Of a stretch of 48,680 bases of DNA, positions 15,659-43,823 are shown one piece after another (the first letter of the stretch is position 1; each line of letters opens with the position of its first letter). This DNA comes from a virus. Below the pieces are notes generated by a model. It searched no databases and was not told the DNA's origin. It was given only the letters and a program-made list of their open reading frames with translations. The stretch covers positions 1 to 48,680 of IMG/VR virus record IMGVR_UViG_3300025647_000003. One strand, 5' to 3'. A program made the translations under genes and the position numbers.

Positions 15659-16588
15659 ATGGCAAATTGCTTATGTGGGGAAGGCGCACAAAACTTAGGA
15701 CAACCAAGTTGCCCGGGCAGTGCAGCAAGACCCGTAAAATTAGATTTCGTCCAAAGAATTGCTTCGGACGGAACTGAAAACAAGATTTTAGCGTCTGAGA
15801 CGTTAAACGCAGCTTACTTTACTGCGCTATTCAATCAAACGGATAAAACAAAGAAGCACTATCCTACTGGCGTTATTAAAAACGTAGTAGATGAGCGTGG
15901 TGACCCTGTTACGTATACGGCTGACGGAATAGATTACTTCGTTAGTGAAGGCAACAGAACTTTCACTTTTGAGATTATCGAAGGTGCGCACCCTTTACTA
16001 GCTAAAGCTTACAACTCATTTAGATGTAAGGATATGACAGTTTACAACTTGTCACTAGATTCGCAAATTGTAGGTAACACAAAGTTAGATGGTGCTTTGA
16101 GAGGTTTTAGAATTGAAAAAAACACGCTTTATGCGAAATTCATTCCTAGAACATACACTGAACCAGCTAAAGTAATGGTAACAATGACATTTTCACCTTT
16201 AGAAGATGATGCTTACATGGGTTATATTGAGTATTCAGCAGATGGCACTGGTGCAGGTGTTTTAACGGTTGATCCTTTAGAGTTTGCAGGGCTTGTTGAT
16301 GTAACAATGGACGCAGCTACTGATCTATCTGTAACAGGCTTTACCGTGCCAATGACTTACATTTACGGAGACGCATTTACTAAGCTTCCTTTTGAAGGTG
16401 CTTTATTGGCTGACTTCACATTGTACAACGAGACAAGTGAAGCGTCTATAACTATTACTTCTGTTGACCCGTCAGATGGCTCTTATTTATTCGTGATCCC
16501 TACACAGACTTCTGCACACGTATTATCATTGACATTTAGTAAGTCAGGATTTGAGTCAACAAACGTTTTAAGTATTGTAGTACCATAA
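15659..16588 (+). CDS. Major tail tube protein
   Basis: This 309-residue protein is positioned before the tape measure region. Residues 1-205 are consistent with a tail tube fold (GNRTFTFEIIEGAHPLLAKA, FRIEKNTLYAKFIPRTY, VMVTMTFSPLEDDAY). Residues about 210-309 form a C-terminal Ig-like domain that would project from the tube. The N-terminus has a Cys-rich turn (CLCGEGAQNLGQPSCPG). The gene is preceded by 64 bases with no recognised promoter and followed by a small gene and a strong terminator. Confidence 0.75.
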   Translation: MANCLCGEGAQNLGQPSCPGSAARPVKLDFVQRIASDGTENKILASETLNAAYFTALFNQTDKTKKHYPTGVIKNVVDERGDPVTYTADGIDYFVSEGNRTFTFEIIEGAHPLLAKAYNSFRCKDMTVYNLSLDSQIVGNTKLDGALRGFRIEKNTLYAKFIPRTYTEPAKVMVTMTFSPLEDDAYMGYIEYSADGTGAGVLTVDPLEFAGLVDVTMDAATDLSVTGFTVPMTYIYGDAFTKLPFEGALLADFTLYNETSEASITITSVDPSDGSYLFVIPTQTSAHVLSLTFSKSGFESTNVLSIVVP

Positions 16589-29668: not shown

Positions 29669-30034
29669 TTATGAGGTGTACTCAATCAAATCTGATTTTT
29701 TAATTTTAAACCTTTTACCATTTGGGTAATATAATGATGGAAGCCCTTTATTTAACTTGTCCACATCAATAGAATTATCAATGGCTATTTCTATTTGTTT
29801 AAAAATGTCGTCTGAATCTTCCGGAAATCGATCTTCCCATATATCTGTTCGGTTCAGTATCGTATTTGTGATAAATTCCTTTTTCATCACAAATATTTTT
29901 TCAAGCGTAGTCTCTTCGCACTCTATTTCCCAATCATCTTCCATGTCTGAAAGTGTTTCCTCGTCAATATCAAGTTCGCACATTAAATCCTCAATATCCG
30001 TGCAAAATCTATCATCATAAAAAAAGTTTTTCAT
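29669..30034 (-). CDS. Acidic hypothetical protein
   Basis: The 121-residue product is very acidic (for example CELDIDEETLSDMEDDWEIE), with a basic C-terminus (GKRFKIKKSDLIEY). Strongly acidic small early proteins are often DNA mimics or inhibitors of host enzymes, but no known family is recognised. The start follows AAATATTATG. Part of the leftward early operon. Confidence 0.65.
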   Translation of the reverse strand: MKNFFYDDRFCTDIEDLMCELDIDEETLSDMEDDWEIECEETTLEKIFVMKKEFITNTILNRTDIWEDRFPEDSDDIFKQIEIAIDNSIDVDKLNKGLPSLYYPNGKRFKIKKSDLIEYTS

Positions 30035-39085: not shown

Positions 39086-39438
39086 AACGAGAAATAAAAT
39101 TTAAAGCAAAGAGAGCAGATAATGGTGAGTGGGTTTACGGGTATTATTATGAGGTTCGAGGTGAATCCATTATTTATAGTGAAGATCACTCAGATAATGC
39201 TGATAGTTATTACAATGATGAAGTAATCCCTGAGACAGTATGCCAATTCATAAATAAAACAGATTTAAACGACAAAGATGTTTTTTTAGAAGATATTTTT
39301 TTAGATGAGTATGGAGATGCTTTTCAAGTTATTCAGTTGGATTGCGGAAGGTATGGTGCAAAAATGTTGAGTAATGGCTATATAGATGAGTTTATTTCAT
39401 GGGGTAAAGTTGAAATAATCGGAAACATTCACAACTAA
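39082..39438 (+). CDS. YopX family protein
   Basis: This 118-residue protein has the YopX family layout: REIKFKAKRADNGEWVYGYY at the N-terminus, a central IPETVCQFINKTDLNDKDVF with the xFxxxTDxxDKD segment and the C-terminal VEIIGNIHN. YopX proteins are common in phages and prophages and their function is not established. It overlaps its upstream neighbour by four bases and is the last gene before the structured leader of the replication genes. Confidence 0.85.
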   Translation: MKREIKFKAKRADNGEWVYGYYYEVRGESIIYSEDHSDNADSYYNDEVIPETVCQFINKTDLNDKDVFLEDIFLDEYGDAFQVIQLDCGRYGAKMLSNGYIDEFISWGKVEIIGNIHN

Positions 39439-39482
39439 ATAGCGTCTAATTAAAAAATAATACCTATATTAGCAGTTCAAAG

Positions 39483-39579
39483 TAACTTCACAATTACTAA
39501 AACATTATTAAAAAGCCCTATTGACGGATGCCTTGTGAAGTGGCTACGTTGGTAGGGTTTTTATTTTAAATAACTTCAC
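39483..39579 (+). promoter_or_regulatory. Attenuator-like leader of the replication genes
   Basis: A hairpin (AAAAA-CCCTA 39510-39520 paired with TAGGG-TTTTT 39553-39562) acts as a terminator with a 32-base loop. The loop contains GTGAAGT (39535-39541), which can pair with TAACTTCAC upstream (39483-39491) or with the same sequence directly before the start codon (39571-39579). The competing pairings could decide between termination, sequestered start and open start. No known riboswitch class is recognised. Confidence 0.55.
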
Positions 39580-39580
39580 T

Positions 39581-40450
39581 ATGGCTAGACCTGAAAGAAA
39601 CAGTATTGATTATTTTCCTTTTTATTGCGAAGACGGTAAAAAGATGTATTATTTAGAAGAAACGTATGGTAATGATGGGTTTGCCACTTTTGTTAAATTA
39701 TTAAGAGAATTAGCGAAAACAGAATACCATTATTTAGACCTTTCAAAGAACACTACAATGATGTTTTTATCATCTAAATGTAAAGTATCAAAAGAAGTAT
39801 TAGAATCTATTATAAAAGATTTGGTTGATTTAGAAAAGTTTGACCGGATGTTGTGGTATGATAATAATATAATTTGGTGTCAAGATTTTATTGATAGTAT
39901 TCAAGATGCTTATAGTAAGAGAAAAAATAACTGTATAACTTATGACGGTTTATTACTCCTTTTAGTTAGTTTAGGGGTGCGTAAACCTATTAAAAGTAAT
40001 CTTAAAGTGGGTGTAAAACCACAAAGTATAGTAAAGGATATTAAAGAAGATAAAATAAAACTAAATGAAACTGATATTTTAGGACTTTTACTTCCAATTC
40101 ATTTAGGGTCTTTTTATAGTTGGTTAGAATATCGAAAAGAAATTAAAAAGGAAATTACAAACCTTAAAACCTTAGATGCTTTAGTTGAATCTTTTAATAA
40201 AGTAACAAAAGAATGTGCAGACTATGTAGTTAACCATTCAATTAGTAATAATTATCAAGGTTTATTTTGGGATAGTTATAAAGGTGCTAAACCGGTTGAA
40301 ATTAACAATCCAAACAACGAAAAGATAATAACTTTTCATTCAAACATTGACCGGACAAGAAAGAAGTTGCCGGAAAGTGAATTTTTATTACTCCAAGAGC
40401 GAATGATGGGTGGAGGTTACATTTATACAATTGTCGAAGATGGAAAATAA
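39581..40450 (+). CDS. DUF4373-type replication protein
   Basis: The 289-residue product begins MARPERNSIDYFPFYCEDGK, then YLEETYGNDGFATFVKLLRE, the signature of the DUF4373/Lin1244-like N-terminal domain. The protein resembles DnaD-type helicase loaders or replication initiators, and the primase-helicase gene follows with an overlap of 11 bases. The last quarter of the gene lies in a stretch rich in CCGG (from 40292). Confidence 0.8.
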   Translation: MARPERNSIDYFPFYCEDGKKMYYLEETYGNDGFATFVKLLRELAKTEYHYLDLSKNTTMMFLSSKCKVSKEVLESIIKDLVDLEKFDRMLWYDNNIIWCQDFIDSIQDAYSKRKNNCITYDGLLLLLVSLGVRKPIKSNLKVGVKPQSIVKDIKEDKIKLNETDILGLLLPIHLGSFYSWLEYRKEIKKEITNLKTLDALVESFNKVTKECADYVVNHSISNNYQGLFWDSYKGAKPVEINNPNNEKIITFHSNIDRTRKKLPESEFLLLQERMMGGGYIYTIVEDGK

Positions 40451-42311
40451 TATAAATGGATTCGAGATTGATGAGTATAACATTCATTCAATATCGACAG
40501 GTGCAAAAACCAATACGTGTCCAAAGTGTTCACATGAGCGTAAAAAGAAAACCGATAAATGTGCTTCTGTATTTTGGGATACCGGCCTATTGAGTTGTAA
40601 CCATTGCGGAGAAATAACTCAAATGCACACTTATAAAAAAAAGAATCACGATACTTTCAAAGTTTATATTAAACCGGTTTTAAAACCTAAAAGCAACATA
40701 TCACCGGTTGTTATTGATTGGTTTAAAAATCAAAGAGGTATTACTGAAAAAACATTAATTGATTGTAAGATAAGCAATAGTTCACGTTGGATGCCAAAGG
40801 CCGGCCGGGAGATACCGGTTATTGAGTTTAACTATTTCTTGTTTGGAGAACTAATTAACATCAAGTCAAGAGGTAAGAATAAAGACTTTATTTTTGAAAA
40901 GGAAGCGGAATTAATTCTTTACGGACTTGATGATATTATAGGACAAAAGGAAGTTGTATTGGTTGAGGGCGAACCGGATAAATTATCATTTTGGGAAGCC
41001 GGAATAAAAAACTGTGCTAGTGTTCCTAATGGATTTACCTTGCCCCGTCCGGATGGCTCAAGCACAATAAATCTTAATTACCTAGATGATTATTACGGAG
41101 TATTAGAACCGGTTGAAAAATTCTATTTAGCATTCGATAATGACCCGGCCGGACAAGAAGGAACAAAGGAATTTATAAGACGTTTAGGTGCTGAAAAATG
41201 TTACTTAGTTGATTTCAAAGATTGTAAAGATGCAAATGATTATTTGTTAAAATATGGCCGGGATGAATTAAAGCAATTATTAGCAGAAGCAAAGCAAGTG
41301 CCTTTAGATGGAATTATAACTATCAAAGATGTAGAGCAAGAATTAAATGATTTTTGGATTAATGGAGCGGAGCGTGGAATGACGATTGATTTACCCGGAT
41401 TCGATAACATGGCTTCATTCGTTTATAAACAACACACTCTTTTAGTTTCTGCTCCCGGTTCAGGAAAGTCTGACTTAATAGATCATATTGTTTGCCGGTT
41501 AGCAATAAAATACGGTTGCCGTGTTGGTATTTGTTCAACTGAAAATAAACCGGAACTATTTCATTATGACAAGATATTTAAAAAGATTCATGGATTAAGG
41601 CCAACGGCCAACACTATTAACTCACCTCTAGTAATTAAATCAAAGGAATTTATAAATGACCATTTTTATCATGTAGATGTAACCGGCCGGTATTATTTAG
41701 AAGATGTTTTAGATAAATTTGTAGAGTTAATTAAAAGAAAGGGTTGCCGGGTGTTTGTACTTGACCCATTTAATAAGATTAATTTAAAGAATTTCAGCCG
41801 GTCAGATATAAATGCTTATACAGCTGAGTATCATCAAATCTTAGATGCGTTTGAGCAAAAGTGGGATTGTCATATATTTTTAGTTGTTCACCCGGTTAAA
41901 CTACCAAACAAAGAAGGGAGTACTAAAACCTATCAAATGCCTAATGCTTATCACATAAAAGGTGGTGGAGAGCATTTCGATATGAGTTATAATATACTTG
42001 GAATGGTTCGAGATTATGAGCATAATATGGTTCAAATTAGAACACTTAAATGGAAATTCCAACATTTAGGAACAACCGGACAAGACATTTGGGTAGGATG
42101 GAATATTAACAACGGACGATATACTGAACCGGATAACTATTGGGATGATAACTGTGGATACCCGGCAGATATAACTTGGAAGAACAACAGTTGGATAAAT
42201 GAAAAATATACACCGGCCGAACCCGAACAGATAGAAGTATTTGAAGCTGCAATAAAACCAAATAGCGAGTTTGATTGGTTAGACGGTAAAGGCGGAGAGA
42301 TAGAATTTTAA
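40440..42311 (+). CDS. Primase-helicase (Toprim plus DnaB-like)
   Basis: I start at ATG 40440, 10 codons inside the longer frame; this gives 623 residues. Zinc finger CPKC and CNHC (27-56), Toprim EGEPDKLSFWEAG (Glu176) and AFDNDPAGQ (Asp233, Asp235), then a RecA-fold helicase with APGSGKSD (Walker A, Lys343) and a Walker B LDPFNK near 445. The architecture is that of T7 gp4/Twinkle-type enzymes. The gene is saturated with CCGG sites (about 27), unlike the rest of the genome. Confidence 0.93.
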   Translation: MENNINGFEIDEYNIHSISTGAKTNTCPKCSHERKKKTDKCASVFWDTGLLSCNHCGEITQMHTYKKKNHDTFKVYIKPVLKPKSNISPVVIDWFKNQRGITEKTLIDCKISNSSRWMPKAGREIPVIEFNYFLFGELINIKSRGKNKDFIFEKEAELILYGLDDIIGQKEVVLVEGEPDKLSFWEAGIKNCASVPNGFTLPRPDGSSTINLNYLDDYYGVLEPVEKFYLAFDNDPAGQEGTKEFIRRLGAEKCYLVDFKDCKDANDYLLKYGRDELKQLLAEAKQVPLDGIITIKDVEQELNDFWINGAERGMTIDLPGFDNMASFVYKQHTLLVSAPGSGKSDLIDHIVCRLAIKYGCRVGICSTENKPELFHYDKIFKKIHGLRPTANTINSPLVIKSKEFINDHFYHVDVTGRYYLEDVLDKFVELIKRKGCRVFVLDPFNKINLKNFSRSDINAYTAEYHQILDAFEQKWDCHIFLVVHPVKLPNKEGSTKTYQMPNAYHIKGGGEHFDMSYNILGMVRDYEHNMVQIRTLKWKFQHLGTTGQDIWVGWNINNGRYTEPDNYWDDNCGYPADITWKNNSWINEKYTPAEPEQIEVFEAAIKPNSEFDWLDGKGGEIEF

Positions 42312-42382
42312 GAGAGCGACTACTAGAAGCGGAAAGCCTAGTGTCTAAATATAACTTAACACAAAAAAATAACTTTTAAAAC

Positions 42383-42412
42383 TTGTTTAATTAAATAACT
42401 TGATTAACTTTG
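42383..42412 (+). promoter_or_regulatory. Promoter of the methyltransferase gene
   Basis: TTGTTTAATTAAA as -33 box, 19 bases from TTG, then TAACTTTG. A perfect activator element is not found upstream; only TCTAAATA (42343-42350), a possible half site, lies 30 bases away. Confidence 0.82.
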
Positions 42413-42431
42413 TAAAAACAAAATTAAAATT

Positions 42432-43823
42432 ATGTTCGATAAAGAATTTTACCCAACGCCACTAGAAGTAATCCAATCAATGGGTTTCGATTGCTACGAT
42501 AAAGTATGTTTAGAGCCTTCAAGCGGAAAAGGTGATATAATTGATTACTTAAAAGAAAATGGAGCAAAAGAGGTATTGTGTGTTGAAAAACAATATGACT
42601 TATCTATACTTTCAGCAGCAAAAGGAGATTTAATAGGACGTGATTTTTTTGATATAACGCCTGAACAGATTAGTCACGTAGACTTAATTATAATGAATCC
42701 ACCATTTAGCAATGCCGATAAACATATCAATCATGCGTGGGAGATTGCTCCTGATGGCTGTGAGATTTATGCGTTATGTAATTATGAAACGGTTGTAAAC
42801 GATAGAGGGTGGGCAAGATCAACACTATTAAAAACAATTGAAAATTATGGTCTTGCGATTAATTTAGGTGATGTATTTTCAGTAGCAGAACGAAAGACGG
42901 ATGTAAATATTGGATTGGTTAAACTTTTTAAACCAAAATGTACAAGTGATACAGATTTTGAAGGATTTTTCATAGAGGATGACGAATTAGAAAGAGATGC
43001 TGACGGTATTATGCGGTTTAATGAAGTTAGAGCTGTTGTGAATACTTACGTTAGTGCTGTAAAGTCATTTGATAAGATTAATGATTTAGTCGAACAATTG
43101 AACCACACTACTAAATTTATTGGTATGGACGGTATTACGTTTAATTTTCAATCAAAGTCAGAAAACTATAACCTTACTACAAAAGAAGCCTATTCTAAAA
43201 TGTTGCAGAAAAAAGGGTGGAATTATGTAATTGATAAAATGGGTATAAGAAAATTCACCACTTCTGAAATGATGAAAGATATTAATTCGTTTGTAGAGAA
43301 TCAGCAAAAATACCCTTTTACCATGAAAAATATATATCACATGATTGATATGATTATACAAACTAAAGGGCAACAATTCAATAAGGCTTTAGTGTTATCT
43401 GTTGACCAATTAACAGCTCATGTGAAAGAAAATAGATTTGGAGTTGAAGGCTGGAAAACTAATTCAGGTCACATGATAAATAAAAAAATAATAATACCTA
43501 ATATTTTTGAACGTGGGTGGGGTAATTCAAATTCAATCACAGTTAGATATGATGGACATTATCGAGAACGTTTAAATGATTTAGTAAAAGTAATATGTAA
43601 TATTGAAGGCGTTAATTATGATGATATAGGTGATGTTTATCAATTTCAAGTTAACGGAAGTAGATCATTATTAACTAACGGATGGTATGATTGGGGATTC
43701 TTTGAAATGAAAGGATTTTACAAAGGAACAATGCACTTAAAATTTAAAGATGAGCAAGTTTGGGCAAGATTAAATAGAGCATACGCAAAGGTTAAAGGGT
43801 TTAATTTACCTGAAAAAATATAG
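42432..43823 (+). CDS. N6-adenine methyltransferase with DUF4942
   Basis: The 463-residue product has an N-terminal class I SAM-dependent methyltransferase: FYPTP at 6-10, motif I CLEPSSGKGDI (26-36) and catalytic NPPF (89-92). The C-terminal two-thirds (from about 200) correspond to a DUF4942-type domain, with aromatic-rich segments at the end. Probable adenine-N6 methylation of phage DNA to resist host restriction or to mark daughter strands. Target sequence unknown. Early gene with its own promoter. Confidence 0.85.
   Translation: MFDKEFYPTPLEVIQSMGFDCYDKVCLEPSSGKGDIIDYLKENGAKEVLCVEKQYDLSILSAAKGDLIGRDFFDITPEQISHVDLIIMNPPFSNADKHINHAWEIAPDGCEIYALCNYETVVNDRGWARSTLLKTIENYGLAINLGDVFSVAERKTDVNIGLVKLFKPKCTSDTDFEGFFIEDDELERDADGIMRFNEVRAVVNTYVSAVKSFDKINDLVEQLNHTTKFIGMDGITFNFQSKSENYNLTTKEAYSKMLQKKGWNYVIDKMGIRKFTTSEMMKDINSFVENQQKYPFTMKNIYHMIDMIIQTKGQQFNKALVLSVDQLTAHVKENRFGVEGWKTNSGHMINKKIIIPNIFERGWGNSNSITVRYDGHYRERLNDLVKVICNIEGVNYDDIGDVYQFQVNGSRSLLTNGWYDWGFFEMKGFYKGTMHLKFKDEQVWARLNRAYAKVKGFNLPEKI

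Follow-up and report, generated by a model that had tools for sequence, protein, structure and literature searches.

The sequence studied was the whole virus record of 48,680 bases with a G+C content of 33.5%, hereafter the window. Two replication genes in it, one for an initiation protein and one for a primase-helicase (hereafter the primase gene), carry a dense island of the palindrome CCGG. The primase gene was started at the ATG at 40440, and a longer GTG frame begins at 40410. The features were as follows:

39581..40450, + strand: replication initiation protein gene (Lin1244_N, PF14297; phrog_2562), 4 CCGG sites
40440..42311, + strand: TOPRIM primase / DnaB-like helicase gene (phrog_239), 26 CCGG sites
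39844..42216, no strand: CCGG island, 30 palindromic sites, mean spacing 82 bases, no helical phasing
40292..42216, no strand: island core, 29 of the 30 sites
15713..15716, no strand: one of the two CCGG outside the island
29821..29824, no strand: the other CCGG outside the island

The exact count agreed with the first-pass annotation, which had put about 30 CCGG at 39844-42216 and two elsewhere: 32 sites were found in the 48,680 bases, 30 in this stretch (site starts from 39844 to 42213, final base 42216) and two outside it, at 15713 and 29821. Based on base composition, about 1.7 sites were expected inside (39800-42260) and 36 outside, against 30 and 2 observed, and thus both the enrichment of the island and the depletion of the remaining genome were as claimed. 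When 32 sites were placed uniformly in 20,000 trials, at most 10 fell in any 2,370-base window. The assignment to the primase-helicase region was refined: that gene contained 26 of the 30 sites, and the other 4 fell in the initiator gene upstream, where 3 were within the final 160 bases. The site at 39844 was isolated, with the remaining island sites beginning 448 bases downstream.

CCGG was by a wide margin the most enriched tetramer of the island region, and its one-step neighbours CTGG, CCAG, CCTG, TCGG and CCGC were all absent from the island. Other GC-rich palindromes were mostly equally rare inside and outside. The sites occupied all three codon phases and no rise in G+C accompanied them, both as previously described; with 32-35% in the stretch, as elsewhere in the genome, base composition was rejected as the cause. 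The gaps between sites ranged irregularly from 4 to 448 bases, and helical phasing was also rejected. Directly 3' of the primase gene, a methyltransferase-like N-terminus with a DUF4942 domain was located at 42432-43823.

Several R-M palindromes are avoided in the window outside 39800-42260, with observed/expected counts of 0/24 for CCWGG, 0/12 for GGSCC, 3/24 for GGWCC and 6/36 for CGCG. Structural relatives of the window phage did not show this degree of palindrome avoidance, CGCG excepted, and had no island on the avoided GC palindromes. They carried another replication module and 82-117 CCGG each without depletion, and therefore have neither the module swap nor the depletion in common with the window phage. 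In five of these relatives (G416-G420) CCGG was present genome-wide at 2.2-2.7 times the level set by composition, and a milder cluster of GCWGC was observed in one of them (G419:15131-17297, with 25 sites; the remainder of this 47-kb record has 50).

Codon usage and retention of the sites

The number of sites in the primase gene was compared with that predicted from its codons. The 26 observed CCGG exceeded both the 2.6 ± 1.5 obtained when the protein was recoded with phage codon usage and the 9.3 ± 1.9 obtained when the gene's own codons were shuffled. Codon bias was thus ruled out as the cause, in accordance with the earlier view that it was insufficient alone. All 12 CCG proline codons precede G and all 6 CGG arginine codons follow C. 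Every island primase tested likewise exceeded its codon shuffles in site number. After masking of the sites, the codon log-likelihood of the primase gene was -0.858, equal to or better than that of other phage genes; a foreign gene by codon usage was rejected, since the codons apart from the sites are typical of the phage. With such codons, and with only 0-1 sites in relatives of 66% identity, the island does not qualify as foreign DNA of the ordinary kind.

Retention was evaluated in relatives at about 79% DNA identity. Compared with four such relatives, the site codons of lillamy9-1 were kept at 0.72-0.83 and comparable codons at about 0.51 (p 0.008-0.075); hattifnatt9-1 exhibited the same tendency less clearly (p 0.035-0.35). 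At the protein level, amino-acid identity of the window to its relatives was 25/49 at site codons versus 389/572 at other codons. The better retention at about 79% identity together with the extra amino-acid change at sites indicated that the site number matters, and the number of CCGG in the primase gene is very probably under selection, with more sites favoured. Given large phage populations, a small benefit per site would suffice.

Palindrome islands in other phages

Every palindromic 4-mer and 6-mer, and palindromic 5-mers centred on N, W or S, were scanned in hundreds of loci around two gene families, primase and terminase. The CCGG island of the window was the strongest palindrome cluster among all loci scanned. 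Across 226 distinct loci carrying a homologous primase, 12 strong clusters of GC palindromes were detected, and 11 of these were on the primase gene, which makes up 11% of the bases. The twelfth, a high-scoring run of CGSCG within 500 bases off the primase in L155, was rejected as an island and is probably a coding repeat. No comparable island was found in 50 control loci with terminase homologues (773 kb), and no comparable enrichment of non-palindromic words on the primase gene. Likewise, no island was present in five Flavobacteriales genomes with a related primase, and plasmid relatives were distant matches only, all below 60% identity.

Beyond what the first-pass annotation had described, the pattern recurred in this gene with a changing motif, which was CCGG, GGCC, GGNCC or GGWCC depending on the phage. 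CCGG was found 27 times in the L031 primase (36% identity) and twice elsewhere, and 11-17 times in the primases of L406, L407, L409 and L412 with none elsewhere. GGCC was found 11-13 times in the primases of L053, L119 and L120 and nowhere else in the locus. In L121, 27 GGNCC were in the island and none elsewhere in 44 kb, with GGCC also clustered; in L043, all 17 GGWCC of a 31.5-kb contig were in the island. In G002, 17 GGWCC were inside the island and 0 outside, where about 31 were expected, and GGSCC was not islanded; this contrast is enzyme-like discrimination. The L121/G005 phage also contains a second gene-confined cluster, in a CHAP-like lysin gene (1646-2089) with 7 GGCC in 444 bases versus 2.6 expected from its own codons.

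When homologous primase genes were compared for CCGG density, the closest ones, L001-L004 (66% identity, including Cellulophaga phage phi10:1), carried 0-1 sites, and close relatives generally had another motif or none. The maximum-likelihood primase tree, in which L001, the sister of the window, has no island, required about six gains or losses of the island label, at least four on well-supported branches. In one metagenome, a near-identical primase was observed behind different initiators and flanks in L407, L406, L409 and L412, which suggests active exchange of the primase cassette there.

The island was also found in cultured Baltic Flavobacterium phages. The virulent hattifnatt9-1, lillamy9-1, sniff9-2 and tooticki6-1 carried 12-14 CCGG in and just upstream of the primase gene. 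Their remaining CCGG were almost all in one small methyltransferase-like gene where this was present, and tooticki6-1, which has no such gene, had a single CCGG outside the primase region. This 218-aa cytosine-methyltransferase-like gene (phrog_757) was located in muminphages at L477:3163-3819, L478:2380-3036 and L483:1649-2305, and its CCGG excess over its own codon usage was weak. In the sisters mumin9-1 and snusmum6-1 a helicase/VirE module occupied the primase locus, with one CCGG there, and the podophage elemoA, with a primase 64% identical, had no CCGG in the 40 kb examined. For some LMO9 phages, plating on LMO6 is 10^3-10^4-fold poorer unless they were propagated on that strain, and these phages lack a methyltransferase that the others have; the effect was described without a recognition motif (PMC7077304). 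Island phages, island-free sisters and Flavobacterium hosts are all in culture (PMC7077304), and because they have been described the question can be tested now.

Candidate readers of the sites and rival explanations

The centre bases of GGNCC and GGWCC were alike on both strands, which speaks against an RNA-level motif. Together with the irregular spacing, this indicated that double-stranded DNA is probably read, and that number counts over arrangement. The first-pass annotation had proposed a recognition sequence for the primase or a modification enzyme. The link to a modification enzyme is still the best lead, but the primase as reader was weakened, because L006, whose zinc-binding region is closely similar to that of the window primase, has no CCGG in the gene. 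The initiator is not a likely reader either, since in L406 and L407 one and the same islanded primase follows initiators without evident sequence likeness. No gene specific to island phages other than the primase was found, and no C5 or N4/N6 methylase gene (PF00145, PF01555) was detected in the window phage. An HNH nuclease common to island phages was tried and rejected. The small methyltransferase-like protein of the muminphages (gp007/gp008) carries CCGG sites of its own, but it is absent from the other island phages and was therefore rejected as a general reader.

From the unlike initiators behind one islanded primase and the site-free L006, a host factor of R-M-type specificity appeared to be favoured. 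All island motifs found are type II R-M palindromes, and the change of motif between phages on a constant gene points to a system acting on the primase gene. The cultured island phages face a modification effect that depends on the host and amounts to 3-4 orders of magnitude (PMC7077304). We put the probability at roughly one in three that the replication gene is acted on by a host factor whose specificity is of the type II R-M kind. Whatever reads the sites, it probably recognises double-stranded DNA through a short palindrome that varies from phage to phage (CCGG, GGCC, GGNCC, GGWCC). On the host-factor reading it would belong to the host, or to another element within the host, rather than being the phage initiator or a conserved phage gene. 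The most likely candidate would be a DNA methyltransferase, either alone or together with its nuclease. If the primase gene were methylated or occupied, the use of the phage replication module in that host might then change. Each extra site would add a small benefit, so that sites would accumulate in the primase gene and the same motif be kept out of the remaining genome. Against the host-factor reading, the island would be a liability if a cognate nuclease cuts unmethylated entering DNA, and in the part of the literature that was searched, no earlier case was found of a phage replication gene controlled through methylation of its body. The palindrome-island pattern itself was not described in these papers either. 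As a tentative and rather doubtful extension, a new form of cis-acting control is conceivable, in which replication genes maximise sites for one host-specific R-M-type DNA-reading enzyme, the marking state of the host sets phage replication, and the motif is re-chosen when the enzyme changes.

The main rival to the host-factor reading is that the island serves as a replication origin or loading zone, with its palindrome bound by one of the phage's replication proteins. The cassette would then bring its own cis sites, and avoidance of the motif elsewhere would keep initiation from going astray. We consider this possible, though unlikely. It accommodates the position of the island on replication genes in every case, its absence from the Muminvirus relatives with the helicase/VirE module at the locus, as if cis sites travelled with the module, and the motif-specific avoidance outside the island of G002. 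It is hard to reconcile with the site-free L006 primase, with the site-poor relatives at 66% identity (L001-L004), with the failure of any short word to stand out as a substitute in relatives that have no island, and with the same motif next to initiators without evident likeness; moreover, the spacing is irregular and unphased, and 30 sites over 2 kb are unlike known iterons.

Import of the cassette, in which the primase came recently from CCGG-rich phages and restriction keeps CCGG scarce in the remaining genome, seems improbable. The module is swapped between phages, the structural relatives with a different module are undepleted, and the non-primase CCGG of the muminphages, nearly all in one methyltransferase gene, are only weakly in excess, all in line with import. 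But no scanned genome of similar G+C was equally dense throughout (the highest reached about 4-5 per kb), the site density was above shuffles of the gene's own codons, near-neighbour words were absent rather than raised, and the non-site codons were not alien. Import would also have to have occurred repeatedly, each time in this one gene but not with one and the same motif. The simple gene import proposed in the first-pass annotation was thus not supported, given phage-typical codons, nearest homologues with 0-1 sites and a repeated origin with other palindromes.

Quite improbable, too, is a mutational or gene-conversion drive to the motif, such as very-short-patch-like repair where recombination is frequent. 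Gains and losses among close relatives were often one transition away (CTGG, CCAG), words missing from the window island, but codon structure largely predicts such a bias towards transitions. Many sites need transversions and amino-acid replacements; CCTG, TCGG and CCGC are missing too, CTGG and CCAG persist in L406, and a repair bias should not be limited to one gene. Very unlikely is a restriction-linked role in timing or recombination, where a host nuclease would cut unmethylated island copies after rapid replication and feed recombination-dependent replication or packaging: many of these phages have exonuclease, annealing or NinG-type recombination genes and the sites are redundant and unphased as for cutting targets, but the idea is speculative, a cut primase gene would be costly and no cognate nuclease is known.

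Comparison with known systems

The pac site of phage P1 is a short cluster of GATC in coding DNA near the packaging genes, where methylation-controlled packaging is exerted through the pacase that reads it. The island resembles it as a cluster of 4-bp palindromic, potential methylation sites within a phage gene. It differs in spanning 2 kb, in lying in the primase and in a motif that changes between phages, and it is distant from the packaging genes (the primase occupies 40.4-42.3 kb and a terminase-like gene 4.3-5.7 kb). At oriC, the GATC cluster is read by SeqA, and the remainder of that genome also has many GATC. A dense short palindrome of methylation type at a replication locus is common to both, whereas the island motif hardly occurs outside the island and changes from phage to phage; a search of the phage for a cognate methyltransferase (PF00145 or PF01555) found none. 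Iterons in initiator genes, such as lambda O, are longer, few and regularly spaced. They also place cis sites inside a replication gene, but the island sites are 4-5 bp, number 10-30, are irregular and are mainly in the primase. No iteron family (15-22 bp repeats with regular spacing) and no long repeats were found in 39300-42600, and with gaps of 4-448 bases and no phasing an iteron origin was rejected. Nor did the gene look horizontally imported by its codon use, which at a masked log-likelihood of -0.858 was not atypical.

With restriction-site avoidance (PMC6286503) the window shares the strong depletion of the motif outside the island, 2 observed versus 36 expected. Avoidance means few sites everywhere, but here one gene is far above expectation, and with 30 sites against 1.7 in 39800-42260 the depletion was not genome-wide. 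Neither clustering nor primase is mentioned in the text of that paper (PMC6286503). Restriction sites in phages are usually regarded as liabilities to lose; here one such site per phage has apparently been accumulated in one replication gene, repeatedly and with differing motifs. If the reader were a host methyltransferase, host epigenetic marks would tune phage replication, and if it were a replication protein, the island would represent an origin of a new type.
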